This document shows positions 17,816-27,152 of a stretch of DNA of 32,695 nucleotides, in pieces. A program made the position numbers and the translations under genes. This DNA comes from Mariniphaga sp. (GTDB lineage Bacteria; Bacteroidota; Bacteroidia; Bacteroidales; Prolixibacteraceae): contig JANXZJ010000060.1 in assembly GCA_025355585.1 (NCBI GenBank), positions 1-32,695 of the forward strand. The letters run 5' to 3'. The first letter of the stretch is position 1. Every line of letters starts with the position of its first letter. Below the pieces are notes generated by a model that was not told where the DNA came from, ran no database searches, and saw nothing but the letters and a program-made list of their open reading frames with translations.

Positions 17816-18592
17816 ATGAAATCACTTAGCTTATTTGCACTAATTGCCATATATTCAACATGCTATCCCTTTGCGGTCCAGGCTCAGGATAATTATGAGA
17901 TTCAGGTTTATTCCGCTGATTTAGTTGAAGAACACCACACCATGTTCGAATTGCACAGTAATTACACAATCAACGGGACAAAAGTGGGACAGGATAATAT
18001 GTTTGCATCCAACCAGCTGGTTCATGAAACATTAGAAATTACACACGGATTTTCCAAATGGTTTGAGATTGGAACCTATATTTTTACATCGATAGGATCA
18101 GCCGGTCGGACGGGATTTGCAGGGACACATATTCGTCCTCGATTTGCTATTCCTGAGGAGTATAATCTGCCGGTAGGTATAAGTTTGAGTACAGAATTAG
18201 GGTATCAGAGGCTGCCTTTTTTTAACCGGCAATGGCTTGCCGAATTACGTCCGATCATCGACAAAAAAATAGATAAATTCTATTTTGCGATCAATTTAAC
18301 CGTTGATTTGAGTCTGGATAAGAATCAACATGATGGCTTACTGTTTAATCCATGTTTTAAATCAAGCTTTGAAACCAGCAAGAAGATTGATTTAGGAATC
18401 GAATATTATGGTGGTCTCGGTGCTTTCCGGCAATTTGATCCAATTCAGAACCAAAAACACTCAATATTTGGCGTCATTGATTGGAATCTTGATCCTGACT
18501 GGGAATTTAATGCAGGATTAGGTTACGGACTCACTTCCGGAACGGATAAATTGATTGTCAAATTGATTCTGGGCTATCGGCTTCCAATTTAG
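17816..18592 (+). CDS. Outer-membrane beta-barrel protein of unknown role
   Basis: This 258-residue exported protein has a signal peptide (about 1-24, ending VQAQDN). The rest alternates amphipathic strands with aromatic girdles (WFEIGTYIFTS, VGISLSTELGYQRL, KFYFAINLTVDLSL, DLGIEYYGGLGAF, WEFNAGLGYGLT) and ends in LGYRLPI. This is what an outer-membrane barrel looks like. No close family is recognised. It ends tail to tail with cysN, with a 4-bp overlap (18589-18592), so there is no space for a separate terminator. Confidence 0.7.
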   Translation: MKSLSLFALIAIYSTCYPFAVQAQDNYEIQVYSADLVEEHHTMFELHSNYTINGTKVGQDNMFASNQLVHETLEITHGFSKWFEIGTYIFTSIGSAGRTGFAGTHIRPRFAIPEEYNLPVGISLSTELGYQRLPFFNRQWLAELRPIIDKKIDKFYFAINLTVDLSLDKNQHDGLLFNPCFKSSFETSKKIDLGIEYYGGLGAFRQFDPIQNQKHSIFGVIDWNLDPDWEFNAGLGYGLTSGTDKLIVKLILGYRLPI

Positions 18593-19956
18593 ATATTGTA
18601 AGAATAGACTTCCTGATCAGATACGATCATTCCGGCACCCACCGTCTCAAATGTGTTTTCGTCAATTAATATGAGACTTCCGGTTATCCGGTTCTCACTG
18701 TAATCATCGTATTTCAACGCCTTTTGAGTTTTGATGGTGATGTGCGCAATGTCGTTCATGTGTATGGTTTTGTCGTCCGCTATATTTTTAAGTGTGTTGA
18801 TATTCACCTTATAGCGGATATCCTGTATAATGGCGGGTGTTTCGTTGGTCGTATGACGCACAATGTATTTTCCTCCTACACTAAGTGGTCGCGCATTCAG
18901 CCAGCAAACATGCAATGAAATGATTGAGCTGTATTTTGGATATTTCTCATTTACTTTTACAAGCAAATCACCCCGGTTAATACTGATATTTCCATCGAGC
19001 CTGATCGAGACCGACTGAGGTGTGAATGCTTCGTTTAATTCAACGGGACCTTCGTCGATAGCCTTAATGGTTGAAAGTCTGTTTGATGGTAATGCAAGAA
19101 TTGTGTCACCAACCCTGAATAAGCCGCCAGATACGCGGCCTGCATAGGCCCTGTAATCTTGAAATGCGGCATTATTTGGATTAATTACATATTGAACCGG
19201 AAAGCGGGCAGGCAATAAACTGTCAGTGTTATGAACCGGAATCGTTTCCAGAAGTTGCAGCAATGTTTCTCCCTTATACCAGGGTGTATTTGCCGAAACA
19301 TCGACTACATTGTCGCCATCCCGGGCAGAAATGGGAATGAAAATGATATTTCCAAGTTTTAATATTACTGCAATCTTCTCATATTCAAGCTTAATTGTGT
19401 TGTACACCTCTTCGGAAAAATTTACCAAATCCATTTTGTTGATTGCCAGAATTACATTCGGGATTTGCAGCAGCGAAGCTATATAGGAGTGACGTTTGGT
19501 TTGTTCCACTATTCCGTTTCGTGCATCAATTAAGACAATTGCAACATCAGCAGTTGATGCTCCGGTAACCATGTTGCGGGTGTACTGAATGTGGCCGGGC
19601 GTGTCAGCGATGATGAACTTACGTTTTGGCGTGGCAAAATAGCGGTATGCCACATCGATCGTAATTCCCTGTTCCCGTTCAGCACGAAGTCCGTCAGTCA
19701 GTAAGGCAAGGTTTACTTCCTCGCCGCCCAGTCGCTCACTGGCATCTTTGACCGATTGCAACTGATCCTCAAAAATCGATTTACTGTCGTAAAGCAATCG
19801 TCCGATAAGCGTACTCTTTCCGTCATCGACACTACCGGCTGTGCTGAAACGGAGCAATTCCATATCCAGGTAACCCGATGGCCCGTTGTCTTCTTCTTTC
19901 AAAAGTAGTGATGACAGAATGGGTTTTATTGCGGATGTATTTATTTGTTGTAGCAT
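18589..19956 (-). CDS. cysN: Sulfate adenylyltransferase GTPase subunit
   Basis: CysN couples GTP hydrolysis to APS formation by CysD, the first step of sulfate assimilation. The 455-residue translation-factor-like GTPase shows G1 GSVDDGKST (41-49), G3 DTPGH (118-122) and G4 NKMD (173-176), followed by two beta-barrel domains. There is no fused C-terminal APS kinase (CysC), unlike many bacterial CysNC proteins. It follows cysD by 59 bp and is the last gene of the cobA/hemD-cysD-cysN unit. Confidence 0.95.
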   Translation of the reverse strand: MLQQINTSAIKPILSSLLLKEEDNGPSGYLDMELLRFSTAGSVDDGKSTLIGRLLYDSKSIFEDQLQSVKDASERLGGEEVNLALLTDGLRAEREQGITIDVAYRYFATPKRKFIIADTPGHIQYTRNMVTGASTADVAIVLIDARNGIVEQTKRHSYIASLLQIPNVILAINKMDLVNFSEEVYNTIKLEYEKIAVILKLGNIIFIPISARDGDNVVDVSANTPWYKGETLLQLLETIPVHNTDSLLPARFPVQYVINPNNAAFQDYRAYAGRVSGGLFRVGDTILALPSNRLSTIKAIDEGPVELNEAFTPQSVSIRLDGNISINRGDLLVKVNEKYPKYSSIISLHVCWLNARPLSVGGKYIVRHTTNETPAIIQDIRYKVNINTLKNIADDKTIHMNDIAHITIKTQKALKYDDYSENRITGSLILIDENTFETVGAGMIVSDQEVYSYNI

Positions 19957-20015: not shown

Positions 20016-20921
20016 CTAAAAATAACCTACCTTTTTACGGTCTTCCATGGCAGCATCCGAACGTTTATCGTCCGCACGTCCGCCACGCTCGGTCACACGT
20101 GAACCGGCAATTTCGGAAATGATCTCTTTCAACGTGTTTGCGGTTGAAAGCGTCAATCCAGTGCACGTGATGTCGCCAATTGTACGGCAACGGACTTTCT
20201 TCCACACCACTTTTTCGGCCGGTTTACGCGGCATGGCTGGCAGTGCTGCATAAAAAATCTCGTCGCGCTCAAACACTTCACGCATATGCGTATAATAGAG
20301 CGATGGCAACGGGATATTTTCCTGAAGAATGTACTGCCAAACGTCCATCTCGGTCCAGTTGCTGATGGGGAAAATTCTGAAGTGTTCACCATCCTGCTTC
20401 TTCCCGTTAAATATATTCCATAATTCGGGACGTTGGTTTTTAGGATCCCATTGGCCAAATTCGTCACGGTGCGAAAAGAAACGCTCTTTGGCACGGGCTT
20501 TCTCTTCGTCTCGGCGTGCACCGCCTATCGCGGCATCGAATTTGTATTTTTCGATGGTATCAAGTAAAGTTATTGTTTGTAGTTTGTTACGACTGGCATT
20601 GTACCCTTTCTCTTCGCCAACCCGACCTTGTTGAATCGATTTTTCCACTGAACCTACAATCAGTTTAACACCCATTCGGTTTACAAGTTTATCACGATAT
20701 AGAAGCGTTTCTTCGAAATTATGACCAGTATCGATATGGACAAATGGAAAAGGGATTGCCGCAGGATAAAAGGCTTTGCGGGCCAGGAACGCCAAAACGA
20801 TCGAATCTTTCCCTCCCGAAAAGAGCAACGCCGGATGCTCGAACTGAGCGGCGACTTCGCGTAAAATGAAGATCGATTCAGATTCAAGTTCTTTAAGATG
20901 AGTTAATTCTCTATGCCCCAT
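20016..20921 (-). CDS. cysD: Sulfate adenylyltransferase catalytic subunit
   Basis: CysD makes APS from ATP and sulfate, driven by CysN. The 301 residues belong to the PP-loop ATP pyrophosphatase superfamily, with the loop FSGGKDS (34-40), HIDTGHNFEET and AAIGGARRDEEKARAKER. The C-terminal RVTERGGRADDKRSDAAMEDRKK is diagnostic of CysD and separates it from the related CysH reductase. Its start is 12 bp after the stop of the HemC-remnant/CobA/HemD gene, and cysN follows, so the three genes are surely one operon. The longer C-terminal tail is normal for the family. Confidence 0.96.
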   Translation of the reverse strand: MGHRELTHLKELESESIFILREVAAQFEHPALLFSGGKDSIVLAFLARKAFYPAAIPFPFVHIDTGHNFEETLLYRDKLVNRMGVKLIVGSVEKSIQQGRVGEEKGYNASRNKLQTITLLDTIEKYKFDAAIGGARRDEEKARAKERFFSHRDEFGQWDPKNQRPELWNIFNGKKQDGEHFRIFPISNWTEMDVWQYILQENIPLPSLYYTHMREVFERDEIFYAALPAMPRKPAEKVVWKKVRCRTIGDITCTGLTLSTANTLKEIISEIAGSRVTERGGRADDKRSDAAMEDRKKVGYF

Positions 20922-20933
20922 GGTTTAATTTTT

Positions 20934-22544
20934 TTATACAAATGTTACTTTATCAACGTAAGATGTTGGATATGCCGATGCCGGTAGAAGTATGGTTTTG
21001 CCGATAGATGAGGCCAATAGGTTTAGGTTCTTCCGGGAAACATTCCGATCGGGAATCAATTGATTCACTTCCCATCCCAGTTCTTTTAAACTTTGCCGCA
21101 AAACGGAAAATACAGGATTGGAACTGCCAATAAGTACTTTCGATGGAGCAATTCCGGCTTCTTTTATCCCCGAAATTAATCCTTCTGACGATTCCACTTC
21201 AGGGATTAAATCTGCAAGGATGCCATGTTCTTTTAGGGCTCCTGCCGTTATTTTCCCAACCACCGCTATTTTTATTCCGGCAAGAAAACGGCTGTCTCTT
21301 CCGTGCTTTTCAATGGTATCGAAAAAAAGATTCACTGTTTGGCGGTTGGTGAAAATCAGCCAGTCAAATGATTTTAATTTTTCTAATTCTTTGCCCAATT
21401 CATTAAAATAGATGTTATTGGTGACGGAATCCAATAGATTGACTTTCAGTAATTCAGTATTTGACTTATTTCTAAAGGAGACCACTTCGCCAATTACAAT
21501 GATAATCGGAGTTGGAAATTTATGCTCCGTTAAGGTGAGTGCTTTTAATGTGAAAAAAAATTCCTGCTGGTCAGGTAAGGAAAGGTTGTAAACCATCATA
21601 ACCGGTATTTCAGGATTCCTGCCCTGTTCAATGGCTTTCCTGGCGATGGCCCGGATATTAGAGCCACCCATGTAAATAACCAGCGTATCTGCATCAGGGA
21701 GGTGTACCTTTTCGGAATGACCTGATATAAATGCAATTGATGAGGAGAGTCCCCTGTGCGTGAGCGGAACCTTAAGAAGTGATGCCACTGCAATTCCAGA
21801 TGAAACGCCAGGGATAACTTCAACGTCAACCAGGTTGCGCTCCAGGTATTCGACCTCTTCGCCACCGTGGGCAAAAATCATCGGGTCACCACCTTTGAGC
21901 CGAACAACCTGTTTGCCCGCTTTTGCTGCACTGAGAATCAAACGATTAATTTCGCCCTGTTCAAAGCAATGACTTCCTTTGCGTTTGCCAACATAGACCT
22001 TCTCCGCATTGTATTTATTAAGGTAATCTTTATCAAGGAGATCGTCATGGAAAATGATATCTGATTGTTCCAATGCATTGTCACCACCCAGTGTTAGCAG
22101 GTCCGGATTGCCTGGTCCAAATCCAACGAGGGTTATTTTTCCAAATTGATTTCGAATGTCATGAGTTGCAAAAAACGCCCTCAGCTCCGGTCTGTTTGCA
22201 AGGGCAACAATTGCGAACTGCTCCTTGTGTTGGGTTGAATTAGCTGGATCCAATGCTTCTAACAGGGCGACGATTTCAAGTCCTGCAGGCAATGGATAAG
22301 GCAAATCTGACGTCGATTGGAGCAGCAAATCTGCTTTCCCTTGTAAGATAGACTGATCTGCTTCTGCCAGAAGATTTTCAGAAAATGCATTACCAGGAAC
22401 TAAGATCTCTTTGTAGCCATCCGATGGCCAGGTAATCAACTTGTATCGCAGATTGGGAAAGCGGTCCAACACCCTGGTCACCTGTTTTAACTTAGGTGTA
22501 CCGTTTCTGGTAATTACTTTCAAAGTGTTCAACGTATCGGGCAT
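20934..22544 (-). CDS. cobA-hemD: HemC-like remnant/uroporphyrinogen-III methyltransferase/synthase fusion
   Basis: This 536-residue, three-part protein serves siroheme synthesis. Residues about 135-357 form SUMT (CobA), with LVGFGPGNPDLLTL and VVRLKGGDPMIFAHGGEE, which methylates uroporphyrinogen III to precorrin-2. Residues about 370-536 resemble uroporphyrinogen-III synthase (HemD). Residues about 8-130 resemble the first part of porphobilinogen deaminase (HemC). ITRNGTPKLKQ matches the HemC N-terminus, and ADLLLQSTSDLPYPLPAGLEI matches the HemC block with catalytic Asp (VHSxKDxPxxxPxGL). That Asp is kept (Asp80), but the preceding Lys is Ser. The Arg-rich block and the cofactor-Cys domain are gone, so the remnant should be inactive. 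It is the first gene of the unit with cysD and cysN, behind a palindromic operator. Confidence 0.88.
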   Translation of the reverse strand: MPDTLNTLKVITRNGTPKLKQVTRVLDRFPNLRYKLITWPSDGYKEILVPGNAFSENLLAEADQSILQGKADLLLQSTSDLPYPLPAGLEIVALLEALDPANSTQHKEQFAIVALANRPELRAFFATHDIRNQFGKITLVGFGPGNPDLLTLGGDNALEQSDIIFHDDLLDKDYLNKYNAEKVYVGKRKGSHCFEQGEINRLILSAAKAGKQVVRLKGGDPMIFAHGGEEVEYLERNLVDVEVIPGVSSGIAVASLLKVPLTHRGLSSSIAFISGHSEKVHLPDADTLVIYMGGSNIRAIARKAIEQGRNPEIPVMMVYNLSLPDQQEFFFTLKALTLTEHKFPTPIIIVIGEVVSFRNKSNTELLKVNLLDSVTNNIYFNELGKELEKLKSFDWLIFTNRQTVNLFFDTIEKHGRDSRFLAGIKIAVVGKITAGALKEHGILADLIPEVESSEGLISGIKEAGIAPSKVLIGSSNPVFSVLRQSLKELGWEVNQLIPDRNVSRKNLNLLASSIGKTILLPASAYPTSYVDKVTFV

Positions 22545-22635
22545 CTGTTTATATGTATTTTGATAAAAGAATCAATGACACAAATAACGTAGATGCAAAA
22601 GGTTTTCGAAATCCCTTGTAATGGGTAAATTAGGA

Positions 22636-22651
22636 TACCATGTTTATGGTA
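22636..22651. promoter_or_regulatory. Palindromic operator upstream of the cobA/hemD-cysD-cysN unit
   Basis: TACCATgtttATGGTA is a perfect 6-bp inverted repeat around 4 bp, centred about 100 bp upstream of the start codon at 22544. The same palindrome, in reverse orientation, lies before cysJ at 26861-26876. Two identical 12-bp half-site sets before the two sulfur-assimilation units indicate a shared regulator, whose identity is unknown. Confidence 0.7.
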
Positions 22652-22746
22652 GGCCTGAATATAAAACACAGAAATTCATCAAAATTGGGGGATTGTTTGA
22701 GGGCAAAACTGCTTCCTTAAGTTCCGAAAGATTGTAGGTGAAAGGC

Positions 22747-23217
22747 TTAATCGATTTTTAAAACTCCTTCGGCTATCAGTTGTGTGATTTGGTTTCGGAT
22801 CGCAACCGACTGATAAACATTCTGAGCATTGGAGCCTACTGAAATGGTTACGTGCCCCTGTTTATGAACAGCAGGTGAAACAAAATCGCACAGCATTGGC
22901 GCATCGCAAACGCTGGTCAGAATCCCAAGCTCCTCGGCATCGGCTTTTATCTGGCTGTTTAGCTCGTGGTTACCGGTACATACGTAAATCAGAAAGAAAC
23001 CTTGAAGGTCGGTTTTCTCATATTCTTTTTCGATAAAGGTGAAAGGCAGTTGGCGGATTTCATCTGTAAAATCGGGTGAAATCACCGTCACATTCGACAC
23101 AATTCGCGCCATGATACTTCCCTTATGAGTGGCAACTTTACCACCGCCAACGAGCAAAATTTTCTTGTTGGTCACATTCAACGAGATGGGCATGAATACA
23201 AGGTCTTCTCTTTTCAT
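22747..23217 (-). CDS. sirC: Precorrin-2 dehydrogenase (siroheme synthesis)
   Basis: This enzyme oxidises precorrin-2 to sirohydrochlorin with NAD+, and in the CysG/Met8 relatives it also inserts iron. The 156 residues cover the Rossmann domain with ILLVGGGKVATHK (20-32) and the VCDAPMLCDFVSPAV segment near the active site. It is about the size of the Bacillus YlnF-type protein and lacks the methyltransferase part of CysG, which is supplied by the fusion gene of the next unit. Its ATG directly abuts the cysI stop, so expression is tightly coupled to sulfite reductase, the enzyme that needs siroheme. Whether it also acts as ferrochelatase is open. Confidence 0.87.
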   Translation of the reverse strand: MKREDLVFMPISLNVTNKKILLVGGGKVATHKGSIMARIVSNVTVISPDFTDEIRQLPFTFIEKEYEKTDLQGFFLIYVCTGNHELNSQIKADAEELGILTSVCDAPMLCDFVSPAVHKQGHVTISVGSNAQNVYQSVAIRNQITQLIAEGVLKID

Positions 23218-24924
23218 TTATTCATGGAATTTTTTTCCTTCGGTTGTCGCTTTCACATATCCTTTGCGGATCACGAAATTTCCAAAGTGTTCGTTTGTTT
23301 CCCTGGATTTGGCATAATCTTCAAGAATTGGTGTTAATGCAGCAATGATTTCCTCTTCGGAAAGCATCTCCTTGTAAAGCTTATTCAGACGGTCGCCCAC
23401 GAAACTGGCGCCAAGGTAAAGATTGTACTTACCTGGTGTCCTTCCAACCAATCCGATTTCAGCCAAAAACGGACGACCACAGCCATTTGCACAACCTGTC
23501 ATTCGGATTGAAATTGGTTCATTCAGCAAACCGTTAGCTTCGAGTACCTTGTCGAGTTTATCAACAAGCGATGGCAAATAGCGTTCTGCTTCGGCAAAGG
23601 CCAGTCCGCACAACGGTAAAGCTGCACATGCAATGGAGTTCTGGCGTAACTGCGACAGACTTTTGCCATCAATAACGTTGTGTTTCTTCAGGATATTTTC
23701 GATTTTTGGTTTCTGCTTTTCTGAAACCTGTGCGATCACCACATTTTGGTTTCCGGTAAGGATAAAACTTCCGTTATGGATTTTAGCCACTTCACGAAGG
23801 GCCGTTTTGGCAGGATATCCGGAACGATCGACAAGTTTGCCACCTTCCACAAAAACTGTGTAATGCCATTGTCCATCGGCACTTTTCGACCAACCGTATT
23901 TGTCCCCCAGGGTCGTAAATTTGTAAGGTTTTGCAGCTTCAGTCTCAATATTGTGCGTCCGCTTCAGTTCTGAGCGGAAATAGTCGAGGCCCAAACGGTC
24001 AATCGTGTATTTTAACCGGGCATTTTTGCGGTCGGAACGATTGCCATGATCGCGTTGAAAGACCAGTACCGCTTCCGACACTTCCACGATTTTCTCTTTC
24101 GGAATATATCCAACAACATCGGCCACCCGGGGATAGGTGTTATTATTCCCAAAGGTGTAAGCCATTCCTCCACCAACCGTTACGTTATACCCTGTGAGTT
24201 GACCGTTTTCGATAATGGCTATAAAGCCAAGGTCGTTCGACAACACATCGGAGTCGTTGCGCGGAGGGATCGCAATGGCTGTTTTAAATTTTCGGGGGAG
24301 GTAGGTTTTCCCGTAGAGTGGTTCTTCCTCCTTTTCGCCACCTTCAACCAGTTTTCCGTCAAGCCAGATTTCATGATAAGCTGCAGTTTGAGGCGTGAGA
24401 TAGGCTGAAATCTTTTTTGCATCTTCGGCCACTTCTGCATGAAGGGGCGACTCGAACGGATTTGCCGATGCCATTACATTTCGGTTCACATCACCACAGG
24501 CAGCCAATGTATCCAACAAGGTATTGTTGATTTTTTGCATCGTGGTTTTCAGGTTGCGTTTCAACACACCATGAAACTGAAAAGCCTGTCGCGTGGTGAA
24601 TTTGAATGTCTTATCCGCGTATTTATCGGCCAGTTCATCCAGCGCGAGCCATTGAGCAGGCGTTGTGATTCCGGCAGGAACACGAATTCGGATGAGAAAA
24701 CTGTAAAGTGGTTCCAGTTTTTGATGTTTGCGTTCGTCGTCAAGATCACGGTCCTGCTGTTGATAGGTGCCATGAAATTTGATTAGCACCTGGTCTTGTT
24801 CCTTCATTGAACCAGTAAGCGGATTATTCAGGCTTTCGGTGATGGTTCCCCGCAGATAGTTGCTGTTTCCCTTGATTATTTCAATCGGACTTGGTGGCGC
24901 TGATATATTGTTGTTATCTTCCAT
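23218..24924 (-). CDS. cysI: Assimilatory sulfite reductase, haemoprotein subunit
   Basis: CysI carries siroheme and a [4Fe-4S] cluster and reduces sulfite to sulfide with electrons from CysJ. The 568 residues show the duplicated nitrite/sulfite-reductase fold. Cluster ligands Cys433 and Cys439 (IACAALPLCG) and Cys478 and Cys482 (TGCANGCGRP) sit one position from those of the E. coli protein. TRQAFQFHGV belongs to the siroheme pocket. I chose ATG 24924, 10 bp after the cysJ stop. ATG 24945, which would overlap cysJ, is a less likely alternative. Confidence 0.95.
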   Translation of the reverse strand: MEDNNNISAPPSPIEIIKGNSNYLRGTITESLNNPLTGSMKEQDQVLIKFHGTYQQQDRDLDDERKHQKLEPLYSFLIRIRVPAGITTPAQWLALDELADKYADKTFKFTTRQAFQFHGVLKRNLKTTMQKINNTLLDTLAACGDVNRNVMASANPFESPLHAEVAEDAKKISAYLTPQTAAYHEIWLDGKLVEGGEKEEEPLYGKTYLPRKFKTAIAIPPRNDSDVLSNDLGFIAIIENGQLTGYNVTVGGGMAYTFGNNNTYPRVADVVGYIPKEKIVEVSEAVLVFQRDHGNRSDRKNARLKYTIDRLGLDYFRSELKRTHNIETEAAKPYKFTTLGDKYGWSKSADGQWHYTVFVEGGKLVDRSGYPAKTALREVAKIHNGSFILTGNQNVVIAQVSEKQKPKIENILKKHNVIDGKSLSQLRQNSIACAALPLCGLAFAEAERYLPSLVDKLDKVLEANGLLNEPISIRMTGCANGCGRPFLAEIGLVGRTPGKYNLYLGASFVGDRLNKLYKEMLSEEEIIAALTPILEDYAKSRETNEHFGNFVIRKGYVKATTEGKKFHE

Positions 24925-24934
24925 TTTAATTTTA

Positions 24935-26719
24935 TTAATAAACATCAAGTTGTAACCGCTTTTCTTTCTGCATTTTATTGACGTAATCCAATGCGCTGTC
25001 GTTACTCATTGCTCCCTGATTTTCAACAATCGATACCAATGTGTTTTGGACGTCATTGGCCATTTTCTTCATATCGCCACAGATGTAGAAATGGGCACCA
25101 TCTTCGAGCCAATGATAGATTTCAGTCGCATTTTCCTGCAGTTTGTGCTGCACATAAACACATTTGTTGGAATCACGCGAGAAGGCGACATCCATTTTGG
25201 ACAATGCCCCGGATTTCAGGAATTTCTGCCAATCGGTCTGGTATAGGAATTCGCTTTCGAAATTCCGATTCCCAAAAAACAGCCAGCTCTTACCTTGTTT
25301 TTCGGACAGCTCACGGTGTTGAACGAAAGCACGATAGGGAGCAATTCCTGTGCCTGCACCGACCATGATGATGGGTGTTTCGTTGTTTTCGGGTAGCCGA
25401 AAGTTTGGATTCTTCTCAATAAAAACAGGTATTTTGCTTTCATTCCCATCAAATTCCAGCAGATAATTCGAACATGTTCCCCGGCGGTTTCTTCCCTTGT
25501 TTTCGTATTCAACAACCCCTACTGCAAGGTGCAGTTCTCCGGGGTTCGCCTTTGGGCTTGATGCAATGGAATACAATCTTGGCTGCAATGGTCTCAGAAG
25601 TTTAATCAAATTCTGGGCTGAAAGTTTTATCGGAAAATCATTTATAAGATCAACAATGTCTCTGCCATTCAGGTATTCCTGTAGTTTTTCCTGTGATTGT
25701 GAGATGTAGGCCAGCTGTTCGTTTGGAGCAAATTCGAGGTAACGTTTTACAACATCGATCGTTATTTTCGATAGCTCAAATTCTTGTTTAAGGGAATCAA
25801 AGAGTGAGATTTTTGCGCCTTTGATTTCTACCTCTTCATCAGGATTTAAACCTGAAGCGGTAAGGACTTCGTTAACAAGTTCCGAAGTATTCACAGGCAT
25901 AATTCCAGCCGAATCTCCGGGTTCGAAGGGTAGGTTGGCATCGAGTTCAATGTGAAGGGTTTGCCGTTCTGAACCACGCCCGTGCAGGTTGATTTTCTCC
26001 AGTAATTCTGCCTGATAGGGATTTTTCTTTGAATAGTTTTGTGAAGCCGAAGTTTCAATATTTTCAGCTGAAGTGACTGATAATTTTTCCCTTGCTGAAC
26101 CTTTAAATGCAAGAAGAGTTGACCTCAGCCACATGTCGGCGGTTTCCTGAAAATCGACATCGCAATTTCCTGCATCGGCCAATCGGTTGGCACCCAGTTT
26201 TTCCAGCTGATGATCGAAATCCTTTCCTGTCTGGCAAAACTGGAAGTAAGAAGAATCGCCCAGCCCCAATACAGCAAAGTTTACGTTTTCGAGCCGGGAG
26301 GCGCGTTTTGAGAAGATGAATCCGTGCAGCTCCTTTGCTGCAAAAGGTGGTTCACCTTCACCATGCGTTGAAACGATCAGAAGCAAGTTCTTTTCAAATT
26401 GTAAGTCCTTTGGTTTGTAATCGTCCATGTTCTTTAACGTAGCTGACAGACCAAATTCAACAGCTAGTTTTTGCGCTTTCTTTGCCAATCCTTCGCCATT
26501 CCCGGTTCGTGAACCATAAAGAATTGTAATTGGGCCAAAGCCTTGTATTTTATTGATTTCAGTTTTACACGGTGCGGGAGCCTGAACCCCATTTTGTGCA
26601 GTTATTCCGGCGAGATATCCTGACATCCACGCCAGTTGCACTTCATTTAACGAACTGGTAAGCTGTCTGAATGTATCTGATTGTTCTGCCGAAAGAGGTG
26701 TTGCAAAATCGTTGCTCAT
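24935..26719 (-). CDS. cysJ: Sulfite reductase flavoprotein subunit
   Basis: CysJ passes electrons from NADPH through FAD and FMN to CysI. The 594 residues give an N-terminal helical segment, a flavodoxin domain (about 63-205; LYGSRTGNGEG, STHGEGEPP), and a FAD-binding domain with RLYSIASSP (381-389). The NADPH-binding domain has VGAGTGIAPYRAF (453-465) and CGDMKKMA, and the protein ends in VY. All parts fit the E. coli enzyme (599 residues). It is the first gene of the cysJ-cysI-sirC unit and has a long leader of about 140 bp up to the palindromic operator. Confidence 0.95.
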   Translation of the reverse strand: MSNDFATPLSAEQSDTFRQLTSSLNEVQLAWMSGYLAGITAQNGVQAPAPCKTEINKIQGFGPITILYGSRTGNGEGLAKKAQKLAVEFGLSATLKNMDDYKPKDLQFEKNLLLIVSTHGEGEPPFAAKELHGFIFSKRASRLENVNFAVLGLGDSSYFQFCQTGKDFDHQLEKLGANRLADAGNCDVDFQETADMWLRSTLLAFKGSAREKLSVTSAENIETSASQNYSKKNPYQAELLEKINLHGRGSERQTLHIELDANLPFEPGDSAGIMPVNTSELVNEVLTASGLNPDEEVEIKGAKISLFDSLKQEFELSKITIDVVKRYLEFAPNEQLAYISQSQEKLQEYLNGRDIVDLINDFPIKLSAQNLIKLLRPLQPRLYSIASSPKANPGELHLAVGVVEYENKGRNRRGTCSNYLLEFDGNESKIPVFIEKNPNFRLPENNETPIIMVGAGTGIAPYRAFVQHRELSEKQGKSWLFFGNRNFESEFLYQTDWQKFLKSGALSKMDVAFSRDSNKCVYVQHKLQENATEIYHWLEDGAHFYICGDMKKMANDVQNTLVSIVENQGAMSNDSALDYVNKMQKEKRLQLDVY

Positions 26720-27152
26720 AATTGTAATTGCCTGTGGACTTCATTCATGATTTGAGTTTTTTCGGTTCAGACATTACAATTTCATCAGAACCCTGGAAAC
26801 ACTTTGCAATATTGTCCTTATCTGCCGGGAATTACAATACCTGTTTTTCGTCATTCTGCATACCATAAACATGGTAGAATACTTATTCCGGAGAGCGTTT
26901 GAAAAACAATTTTCAAAGTGTCAACTTTTGCATTTAAAGTTGTCCGGTTTTAGAGGTCAAGTGGGTCTGGCTGAGTCAATTTATTCAATTTTTAGTTTGA
27001 AAATCCATCTTCTTTTTCAAAACAACGTGCCAGGTTTTGTAATCTGATACAGGTTTTTAATAAAGACAGTAGGTCTAAAATGACTTCCTGTCTTATGTGA
27101 TTCATTCATAATTAACGCATAATAAAATATATTTGAGGCTGTTATAGATTGT
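26720..27152. other. Intergenic stretch upstream of cysJ
   Basis: This 433-bp gap holds no convincing gene. It contains the palindromic operator at 26861-26876. Closer to cysJ there is an imperfect inverted repeat (26764-26792; GGTTC / GAACC with inner bases partly paired) that could form a leader hairpin. No TAnnTTTG box was found on the minus strand here. The part from 26890 to 27152 shows nothing recognisable. Confidence 0.5.
26861..26876. promoter_or_regulatory. Palindromic operator upstream of cysJ-cysI-sirC
   Basis: TACCATaaacATGGTA is the reverse complement of the site at 22636-22651, including the 4-bp spacer. It ends 142 bp before the cysJ start codon. On the coding strand both copies share the flanks C before and T after. 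Confidence 0.7.

Follow-up and report, generated by a model that had tools for sequence, protein, structure and literature searches.

A tandem palindromic operator upstream of sulfur-assimilation genes in Bacteroidales and an orphan NarL/FixJ-type response regulator as its candidate binding protein

Introduction

Sulfur and cysteine metabolism of bacteria is controlled by regulators of several protein families, among them CysB and CmbR (both LysR), CymR (Rrf2), McbR (TetR) and CysR (a ROK protein in Corynebacterium and a Crp-type protein in cyanobacteria). In this work, a DNA stretch of 32,695 nucleotides from Mariniphaga sp. (Prolixibacteraceae; assembly GCA_025355585.1, contig JANXZJ010000060.1, positions 1 to 32,695), referred to here as the window, was analysed with respect to a palindrome, TACCAT-N4-ATGGTA, which a preliminary description of the sequence had noticed in front of two sulfur-assimilation units (cobA/hemD-cysD-cysN and cysJ-cysI-sirC) and had proposed to be the operator of a sulfur- or cysteine-responsive regulator.

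Outside the sulfur field, the available passages on the response regulator NarL describe its binding to 16-bp inverted repeats of the 7-2-7 type and the activation of ogt from −44.5 and −77.5 (PMC7419079), with TACYYMT as the heptamer consensus (PMC4886647, likewise seen in part). No Bacteroidales sulfur-assimilation regulator or operator was found in open-access titles and abstract openings among the matches listed, subscription papers being outside this search.

Genome comparison supports the operator proposal and refines it, the palindrome being the distal half of a tandem element: as judged from sequence, the palindromes are part of the operator of a sulfur regulon conserved across Bacteroidales families. 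We consider it likely that this tandem operator marks the sulfur-assimilation regulon and is used by an orphan NarL/FixJ-type regulator acting as an activator. What is new here is a searchable operator, a rigid promoter geometry, a list of targets and one candidate protein.

Results

Palindromes upstream of two sulfur-assimilation units

The 16-mers TACCATGTTTATGGTA (positions 22636-22651) and TACCATAAACATGGTA (positions 26861-26876), both written for the plus strand, are exact reverse complements of one another and lie in intergenic DNA, with the cobA/hemD start (22544) ≈92 bp downstream of the first and the cysJ start (26719) ≈142 bp downstream of the second. Position, mutual identity and location outside coding sequence are thereby verified, as is the placement of each palindrome in front of one sulfur unit, the gene identities of which are backed by NCBIfam (CysN, CysD, CobA/CysG-C, CysG-N for sirC, CysI and CysJ).

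In the source assembly (4,094,628 bases in 197 contigs, 84.3% complete), no crowd of random copies was encountered: the exact pattern TACCATN4ATGGTA has two matches, both preceding the sulfur units, and the pattern read backwards has none across the whole assembly. Because both copies precede sulfur units, an explanation is called for. The count of two is by itself weak, considering that ≈0.41 exact matches are expected from the base composition of the window (P = 0.065 for two or more), and a scan of the window allowing up to two mismatches returned four matches, a number reached by 5 of 100 shuffles. The case was built on location and conservation.

Conservation of the tandem operator

In aligned promoters, the palindrome constitutes the distal half (site 1) of a tandem with the sequence TACC-N8-GGTA, followed by 6-8 bp and by a weaker proximal half (site 2) of the form TnCC-N8-GGKA, the distance between the two sites being 22-24 bp from start to start. 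Matches to this tandem occur in the window at exactly the two operator places.

CysJ is present in 12 of the 18 genus genomes (13 matches, one of which, a partial match in G103 at E 4.7e-4, was left out of the counts), and in all 12 the tandem precedes cysJ, its palindrome being related to that of the window and reading TACCATAAANTAGGTA in several relatives. The same element is located before cysD in G091, G097, G064, G071 and G084; G102 has it in front of a cobA homologue, and G094 and G104 in front of a cysN-like gene. Genes for cysK or cysK-like products follow it twice in G056 and also in G084, G071 and the source genome, where this third site (C101:9776-9791) precedes a gene identified as cysK by TIGR01139 (E 6.8e-141). 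The proposed operator is thus conserved in front of orthologous cysJ and cysD genes, and in the source genome it also precedes a further sulfur gene, cysK.

A scan of genomic contigs based on a CysJ alignment covered 28 loci with named records, representing Prolixibacteraceae and Mariniphaga metagenome-assembled genomes, Paludibacter and other Paludibacteraceae, Bacteroidia and two Thalassotalea outgroups. A tandem matching at least 14 of 16 positions within 700 bp upstream of cysJ was found at 20 of these loci (≈12 from genus or sister genomes and eight from Paludibacter or Paludibacteraceae), as compared to no CysJ locus for 23 control words of the same composition, which at 13 of 16 positions gave a mean of 0.17 and a maximum of one. 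The eight loci at which no tandem was found before cysJ are the two from Thalassotalea, L162 (cut by the contig end), L169 and L176, in both of which cysJ follows a cysD-led gene row with the tandem at the start of the row, and L152, L153 and L159. In other families, the tandem precedes cysD, cysK, metY and a ThiF-family gene, and a serine hydrolase gene is a recurrent target.

Two neighbouring genes recur at such loci. A small serine hydrolase is encoded directly behind the tandem in L150, L153, L163, L165, L178 and L182, which belong to several families (assigned by PF06821 in L182 and by eye in the others). A short membrane-protein gene is located between operator and cysJ in most of L150, L163, L165, L168, L169, L170 and L176; before the Paludibacter-type cysJ we take it, by eye, to be DUF2061.

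The genus also harbours a second cysD copy that shares ≈72% identity with the query. Upstream of 15 such copies, no tandem (at least 13 of 16) was found within 500 bp, whereas five of five assimilatory cysD genes of relatives have one (Fisher p = 6e-5). The cysD count leaves out the partial loci L060, L067 and L068 as well as L045, the source genome's own copy, where the operator stands before cobA. In the source genome, a second cysD-cysN copy without operator is located at G000:C86:32958-33860 (L111:10958-11860); our guess is that this copy serves sulfation.

The 12 exact letters of the palindrome were also considered as the conserved unit and proved too strict. Among 100 family genomes, 54 have a match to the exact pattern; in 24 of the 29 loci examined (L003-L031) the match lies in an open frame of at least 98 codons, and none of these 24 loci, all from outside the genus, adjoins the sulfur queries. 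The exact letters are therefore not what is conserved.

Distance between operator and promoter box

The motif TAnnTTTG is the form recognised by the main Bacteroidetes sigma factor. In 40 of 55 tandem promoters, a box matching at least five of its six defined bases starts at an offset of exactly 39 bp downstream from the first base of site 2. The 55 were picked for carrying the tandem and in many cases come from close relatives, so that they are not independent; any other offset is seen in at most one of them. The set covers cysJ, cysD, cysK, cysN, hydrolase, ThiF-type and PstS-like genes from several families, and the two sites are spaced 22, 23 or 24 bp apart. At this offset, the source genome has the boxes GTTATTTG and CAATATTG (each 4/6) in the window and CAACTTTG (5/6) as its third; the letters of CAATATTG are identical in sister genome G102. 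The features of the two units, all of which are on the minus strand, are as follows.

22636..22651, minus strand: distal operator half (site 1) of the cobA/hemD-cysD-cysN unit, reading TACCATAAACATGGTA along the gene strand
22612..22627, minus strand: proximal operator half (site 2) of the same unit, reading TACCCATTACAAGGGA along the gene strand, its start 24 bp from that of site 1
22581..22588, minus strand: degenerate promoter box of the cobA/hemD unit, GTTATTTG, 4/6 to TAnnTTTG, starting 39 bp after the site 2 start
20934..22544, minus strand: cobA/hemD fusion, first gene of the unit, uroporphyrinogen-III C-methyltransferase with a uroporphyrinogen-III synthase-like part
20016..20921, minus strand: cysD, sulfate adenylyltransferase small subunit (NCBIfam)
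18589..19956, minus strand: cysN, sulfate adenylyltransferase large subunit (NCBIfam)
26861..26876, minus strand: distal operator half (site 1) of the cysJ-cysI-sirC unit, reading TACCATGTTTATGGTA along the gene strand
26838..26853, minus strand: proximal operator half (site 2) of the same unit, reading TGACGAAAAACAGGTA along the gene strand, its start 23 bp from that of site 1
26807..26814, minus strand: degenerate promoter box of the cysJ unit, CAATATTG, 4/6 to TAnnTTTG, starting 39 bp after the site 2 start
24935..26719, minus strand: cysJ, assimilatory sulfite reductase flavoprotein subunit (NCBIfam)
23218..24948, minus strand: cysI, assimilatory sulfite reductase hemoprotein subunit (NCBIfam)
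22747..23217, minus strand: sirC-type siroheme synthase, CysG N-terminal domain (NCBIfam)

Elsewhere in the window, a DDE transposase gene (PF01609, E 4.1e-9) occupies positions 69-1181 at the left end of the contig.

The preliminary description had seen no recognisable TAnnTTTG box beside either site, and had suggested that an activator or another sigma factor may be involved. A box is in fact present, at the place where most relatives have a good one, and it was overlooked because it is degenerate. Another sigma factor is not needed, given that this box exists, whereas an activator is probable considering the upstream tandem and the fixed distance of 39 bp. Assignment of the sites to promoters read by an alternative sigma factor, a view which the poor match of both window boxes would favour, is made highly improbable by the good box found at the same place in 40 of the 55 promoters.

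If the box is centred near −7, site 2 is centred at ≈−42 and site 1 at ≈−65, and this layout would fit an activator rather than a blocking repressor. A repressor leaving the DNA when sulfur is short could hinder the polymerase from site 2, which ends ≈20 bp upstream of the box and next to a would-be −33 element; yet the two sites stand in a row upstream of the box at the rigid 39-bp distance with none over the box itself, the boxes of the source genome are poor, and NarL itself works as an activator from −44.5 and −77.5 according to the available passages of PMC7419079, all of which render repression quite unlikely.

The same geometry bears on the reading of the palindromes as a chance repeat, for which the ≈0.41 copies expected by composition (P = 0.065) would leave room, or as an RNA structure such as a terminator or riboswitch. 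We give almost no credence to either, in view of the conservation with control words at zero and of the fixed distance to the promoter box; an RNA structure, for which no search of RNA families was made, is further opposed by the position of the operator upstream of the inferred transcript start.

Search for the regulator

The operator layout resembles that of LysR promoters, for which reason a LysR-type activator was searched for. No PF00126 match (E 0.001) was obtained in 6 of the 12 genus genomes with CysJ, namely the source genome, G091, G064, G078, G015 and G102, four of which are at least 92% complete, and this family was rejected. Rrf2 proteins were rejected as well: type A is present in 6 of the 12 motif genomes, and type B, though it occurs in 11 of them, adjoins ScdA/hemerythrin genes in those copies that were read. 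Clustering of 58 Crp/Fnr proteins from the 12 genomes (G015, G088 and G103 being partly sampled) produced one cluster represented in all 12, yet none of 30 Crp loci has a sulfur neighbour. An Rrf2 protein is paired with a Crp/Fnr-like protein in L119, L120 and L122, and in L122 this pair is also located beside a symporter-like gene and a piece of a NarL-type regulator split between two frames.

In gene neighbourhoods, NarL-type proteins were seen close to cysK (G056) and adjoining cysDN (G071). The candidate is an orphan NarL/FixJ-type response regulator of 221 aa, encoded in the source genome at G000:C18:27998-28660, on a different contig from the window and directly after a metB-like gene (Cys/Met PLP-enzyme family). 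All 12 genus genomes that have CysJ also have an orthologue. When 218 genomes of the order were searched with a profile, 36 gave a match with E no higher than 1e-40: 25 genomes reached at least 3.3e-60, followed by G106 (1.8e-49) and ten others from 4.3e-46 down. The first 26 matches (own included) were taken as the clade, with G106 as a borderline member on a long branch, and this clade splits from seven paralogues or weak hits with support 100/98.

Linkage of the regulator to sulfur genes and to the operator

A sulfur neighbour, defined as a cysK, cysD, cysJ, metA or metY/metB-family gene within ≈1.5 kb, is found at 14 of 26 other-family regulator loci (G365 plus 25 genomes of the profile search; in L304 the neighbour is only 34% identical to the metY query) and at 9 of 20 regulator loci of the genus. 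Control loci of similar size have a sulfur neighbour in 2 of 88 cases (Fisher p = 3e-9, related loci not being fully independent), distributed as 0/30 for Crp, 1/30 for Rrf2, 0/18 for LysR and 1/10 for NarL-type paralogues or weak hits; L345 (E 2e-44), which adjoins cysK and is possibly a clade member, was placed among the controls, and L319 repeats L304.

At six of the 26 other-family regulator loci (L304, L324, L327, L329, L331 and L339) the tandem itself is present, each time in the gap before a cysK, metY, cysJ or PstS-like gene adjoining the regulator, as compared to none for 23 control words and a mean of 0.075 (maximum one) for 40 dinucleotide shuffles; beyond spacings of 22-24 bp, the scan of regulator loci gave one match at 21 and one at 33. 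We take this side-by-side occurrence to be the main evidence that protein and operator belong together. The strict tandem pattern is found in 3 of 26 genomes with the regulator versus 1 of 192 others (p = 0.006, assuming that the 218 genomes fall within the 295 genomes of the order scanned for it).

Two weaker tandems (13/16), without a box at +39, are located at L349:6253-6291 (G100) and L347:9407-9445 (source genome), between a regulator-adjacent acetyltransferase gene and the following peptidase-like gene. PstS-like substrate-binding genes occur beside the regulator or sulfur units in L304, L177, L107, L117 and L352, assigned in L304 by TIGR02136 (E 2.3e-34, below the family cut-off) and in the others by eye; their products may be carriers of sulfate or other oxyanions.

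These data also bear on whether the operator, though real and controlling sulfur genes, is bound by another regulator (Crp/Fnr, Rrf2 or a different NarL-type protein), with the response regulator as a mere neighbour. Such a reading could draw on the Crp/Fnr cluster common to all 12 genomes and the Rrf2 type found in 11 of them, as well as on the half of response-regulator loci that have no adjacent sulfur gene. We nevertheless judge it unlikely on account of the contrast in sulfur neighbours between the response regulator and each control family, the limited occurrence of Rrf2 type A and the ScdA/hemerythrin surroundings of type B, the absence of LysR from half of the genomes and the six other-family loci at which tandem and response regulator lie side by side.

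Protein features of the candidate

A GerE (LuxR-type) domain, PF00196, was detected in all four clade members scanned (own copy E 1.2e-15) and a receiver domain, PF00072, in three of them (own copy E 1.9e-11), with none at E 0.001 for the G295 copy. The profile matches full-length VraR and NarL, and the nearest solved relatives by sequence are VraR, followed by DesR, RcsB and NarL. Across the 44 clade members aligned (L291 was left out, and start and length rules removed L302, L313, L344 and L345), the phospho-acceptor Asp is present in all and the conserved Lys in 43; the second Asp of the acid pocket is present in none, and the His that usually follows it is replaced by Gln in 43. All seven paralogues or weak hits keep DDH. 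Most clade members end in EYYI or a close variant.

The regulator is thus a NarL/FixJ protein by its domains and, as the alignment indicates, one without a defining feature of the canonical phosphorelay receiver, the DD acid pocket. A histidine kinase gene (HisKA, HATPase_c) is located near the regulator in L332; at the other loci, which were read by eye only, no kinase gene was noticed next to most copies. Given this and the loss of the acid-pocket Asp, the signal may differ from an ordinary phosphorelay.

Discussion

The comparison shows the operator, its conservation and its fixed distance from the promoter box, together with the linkage of the regulator gene to operator and sulfur genes. 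Regulator binding, activation and a response to sulfur or cysteine are what we infer from this arrangement. Two dimers of the orphan NarL/FixJ-type regulator would bind site 1 and site 2 on one face of the DNA, site 2 lying two helical turns downstream of site 1 and abutting the promoter, and the bound regulator would help RNA polymerase to initiate from a weak promoter under shortage of sulfur or cysteine. Its regulon would consist of cobA/hemD-cysDN, cysJI-sirC and cysK in the source genome, and of metY, the serine hydrolase gene and others in relatives, while the signal could be a metabolite or an unusual phosphoryl donor instead of an ordinary phosphorelay. Tentatively, and as something short of a probable conclusion, we suggest that sulfur assimilation in much of the Bacteroidales may be under an undescribed class of orphan NarL-type regulators, the altered receiver of which would read a sulfur metabolite (for example O-acetylserine, sulfide or cysteine) directly rather than a kinase signal and which would act through a rigid double operator.

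Several observations weigh against activation of a conserved sulfur regulon by this protein. With regard to the operator, both window boxes are degenerate (4/6), L152, L153 and L159 lack a tandem before cysJ, and the strict tandem pattern is present in only 5 of 295 genomes of the order, the G115 match being in coding sequence and the G130 match unassigned. In addition, the operator heptamer TACCATA has only the outer TACC in common with the NarL consensus TACYYMT, the following ATA being a misfit (PMC4886647, available passages). With regard to the protein, the regulator also occurs in four of the six genus genomes that lack CysJ, which means that its presence alone does not discriminate, and it was not found in G104 (64% complete), which has a tandem before a cysN-like gene. 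There is no convincing tandem at the source genome's own regulator locus, 12 of the 26 other-family regulator loci are without a sulfur gene in the surrounding ≈1.5 kb, and the tandem is missing from the DNA examined at 20 of the 26.

With operator and candidate in hand, the control of sulfate assimilation in gut and sediment Bacteroidales becomes directly testable. If the proposal is true, a response regulator with an altered phosphorylation pocket has been recruited to core metabolism.

Comparison with known systems

Like NarL/NarP of Escherichia coli, the candidate has a receiver and a GerE domain, and its putative operator is a 16-bp inverted repeat present twice in tandem, the outer TACC/GGTA of which fits the TACY of the 7-2-7 sites; the proposed activation from just upstream of the promoter likewise resembles that by NarL at ogt, as described in the accessible part of PMC7419079. 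The systems differ in the distance between sites (22-24 bp versus 33), in their targets (sulfur versus nitrate genes) and in the altered acid pocket of the candidate, most copies of which have no kinase gene seen beside them.

The VirR/VirS system of Clostridium perfringens, acting on the ubiG operon, offers another response regulator that influences sulfur amino-acid genes; it is a kinase-paired two-component system and belongs to another phylum, the likeness considered here being one of role (PMC2940859, opening of the abstract). Orphan response regulators described as atypical elsewhere also act as transcription factors; they control development, and the passage seen states no sulfur link. 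The passages seen of PMC12596196 and PMC9723704 mention no sulfur regulon.

Among the dedicated sulfur regulators, a system of the CysB/LysR kind is at odds with the lack of LysR in half of the motif genomes, and one of the CymR/Rrf2 kind with Rrf2 loci unlinked to sulfur genes (1 of 30 having such a neighbour). With CysB, CymR, CmbR, McbR and CysR the proposed system nonetheless shares the content of its regulon, namely genes for sulfate activation, sulfite reduction and cysteine synthesis, and it is set apart from all of them by a candidate regulator from a different protein family.

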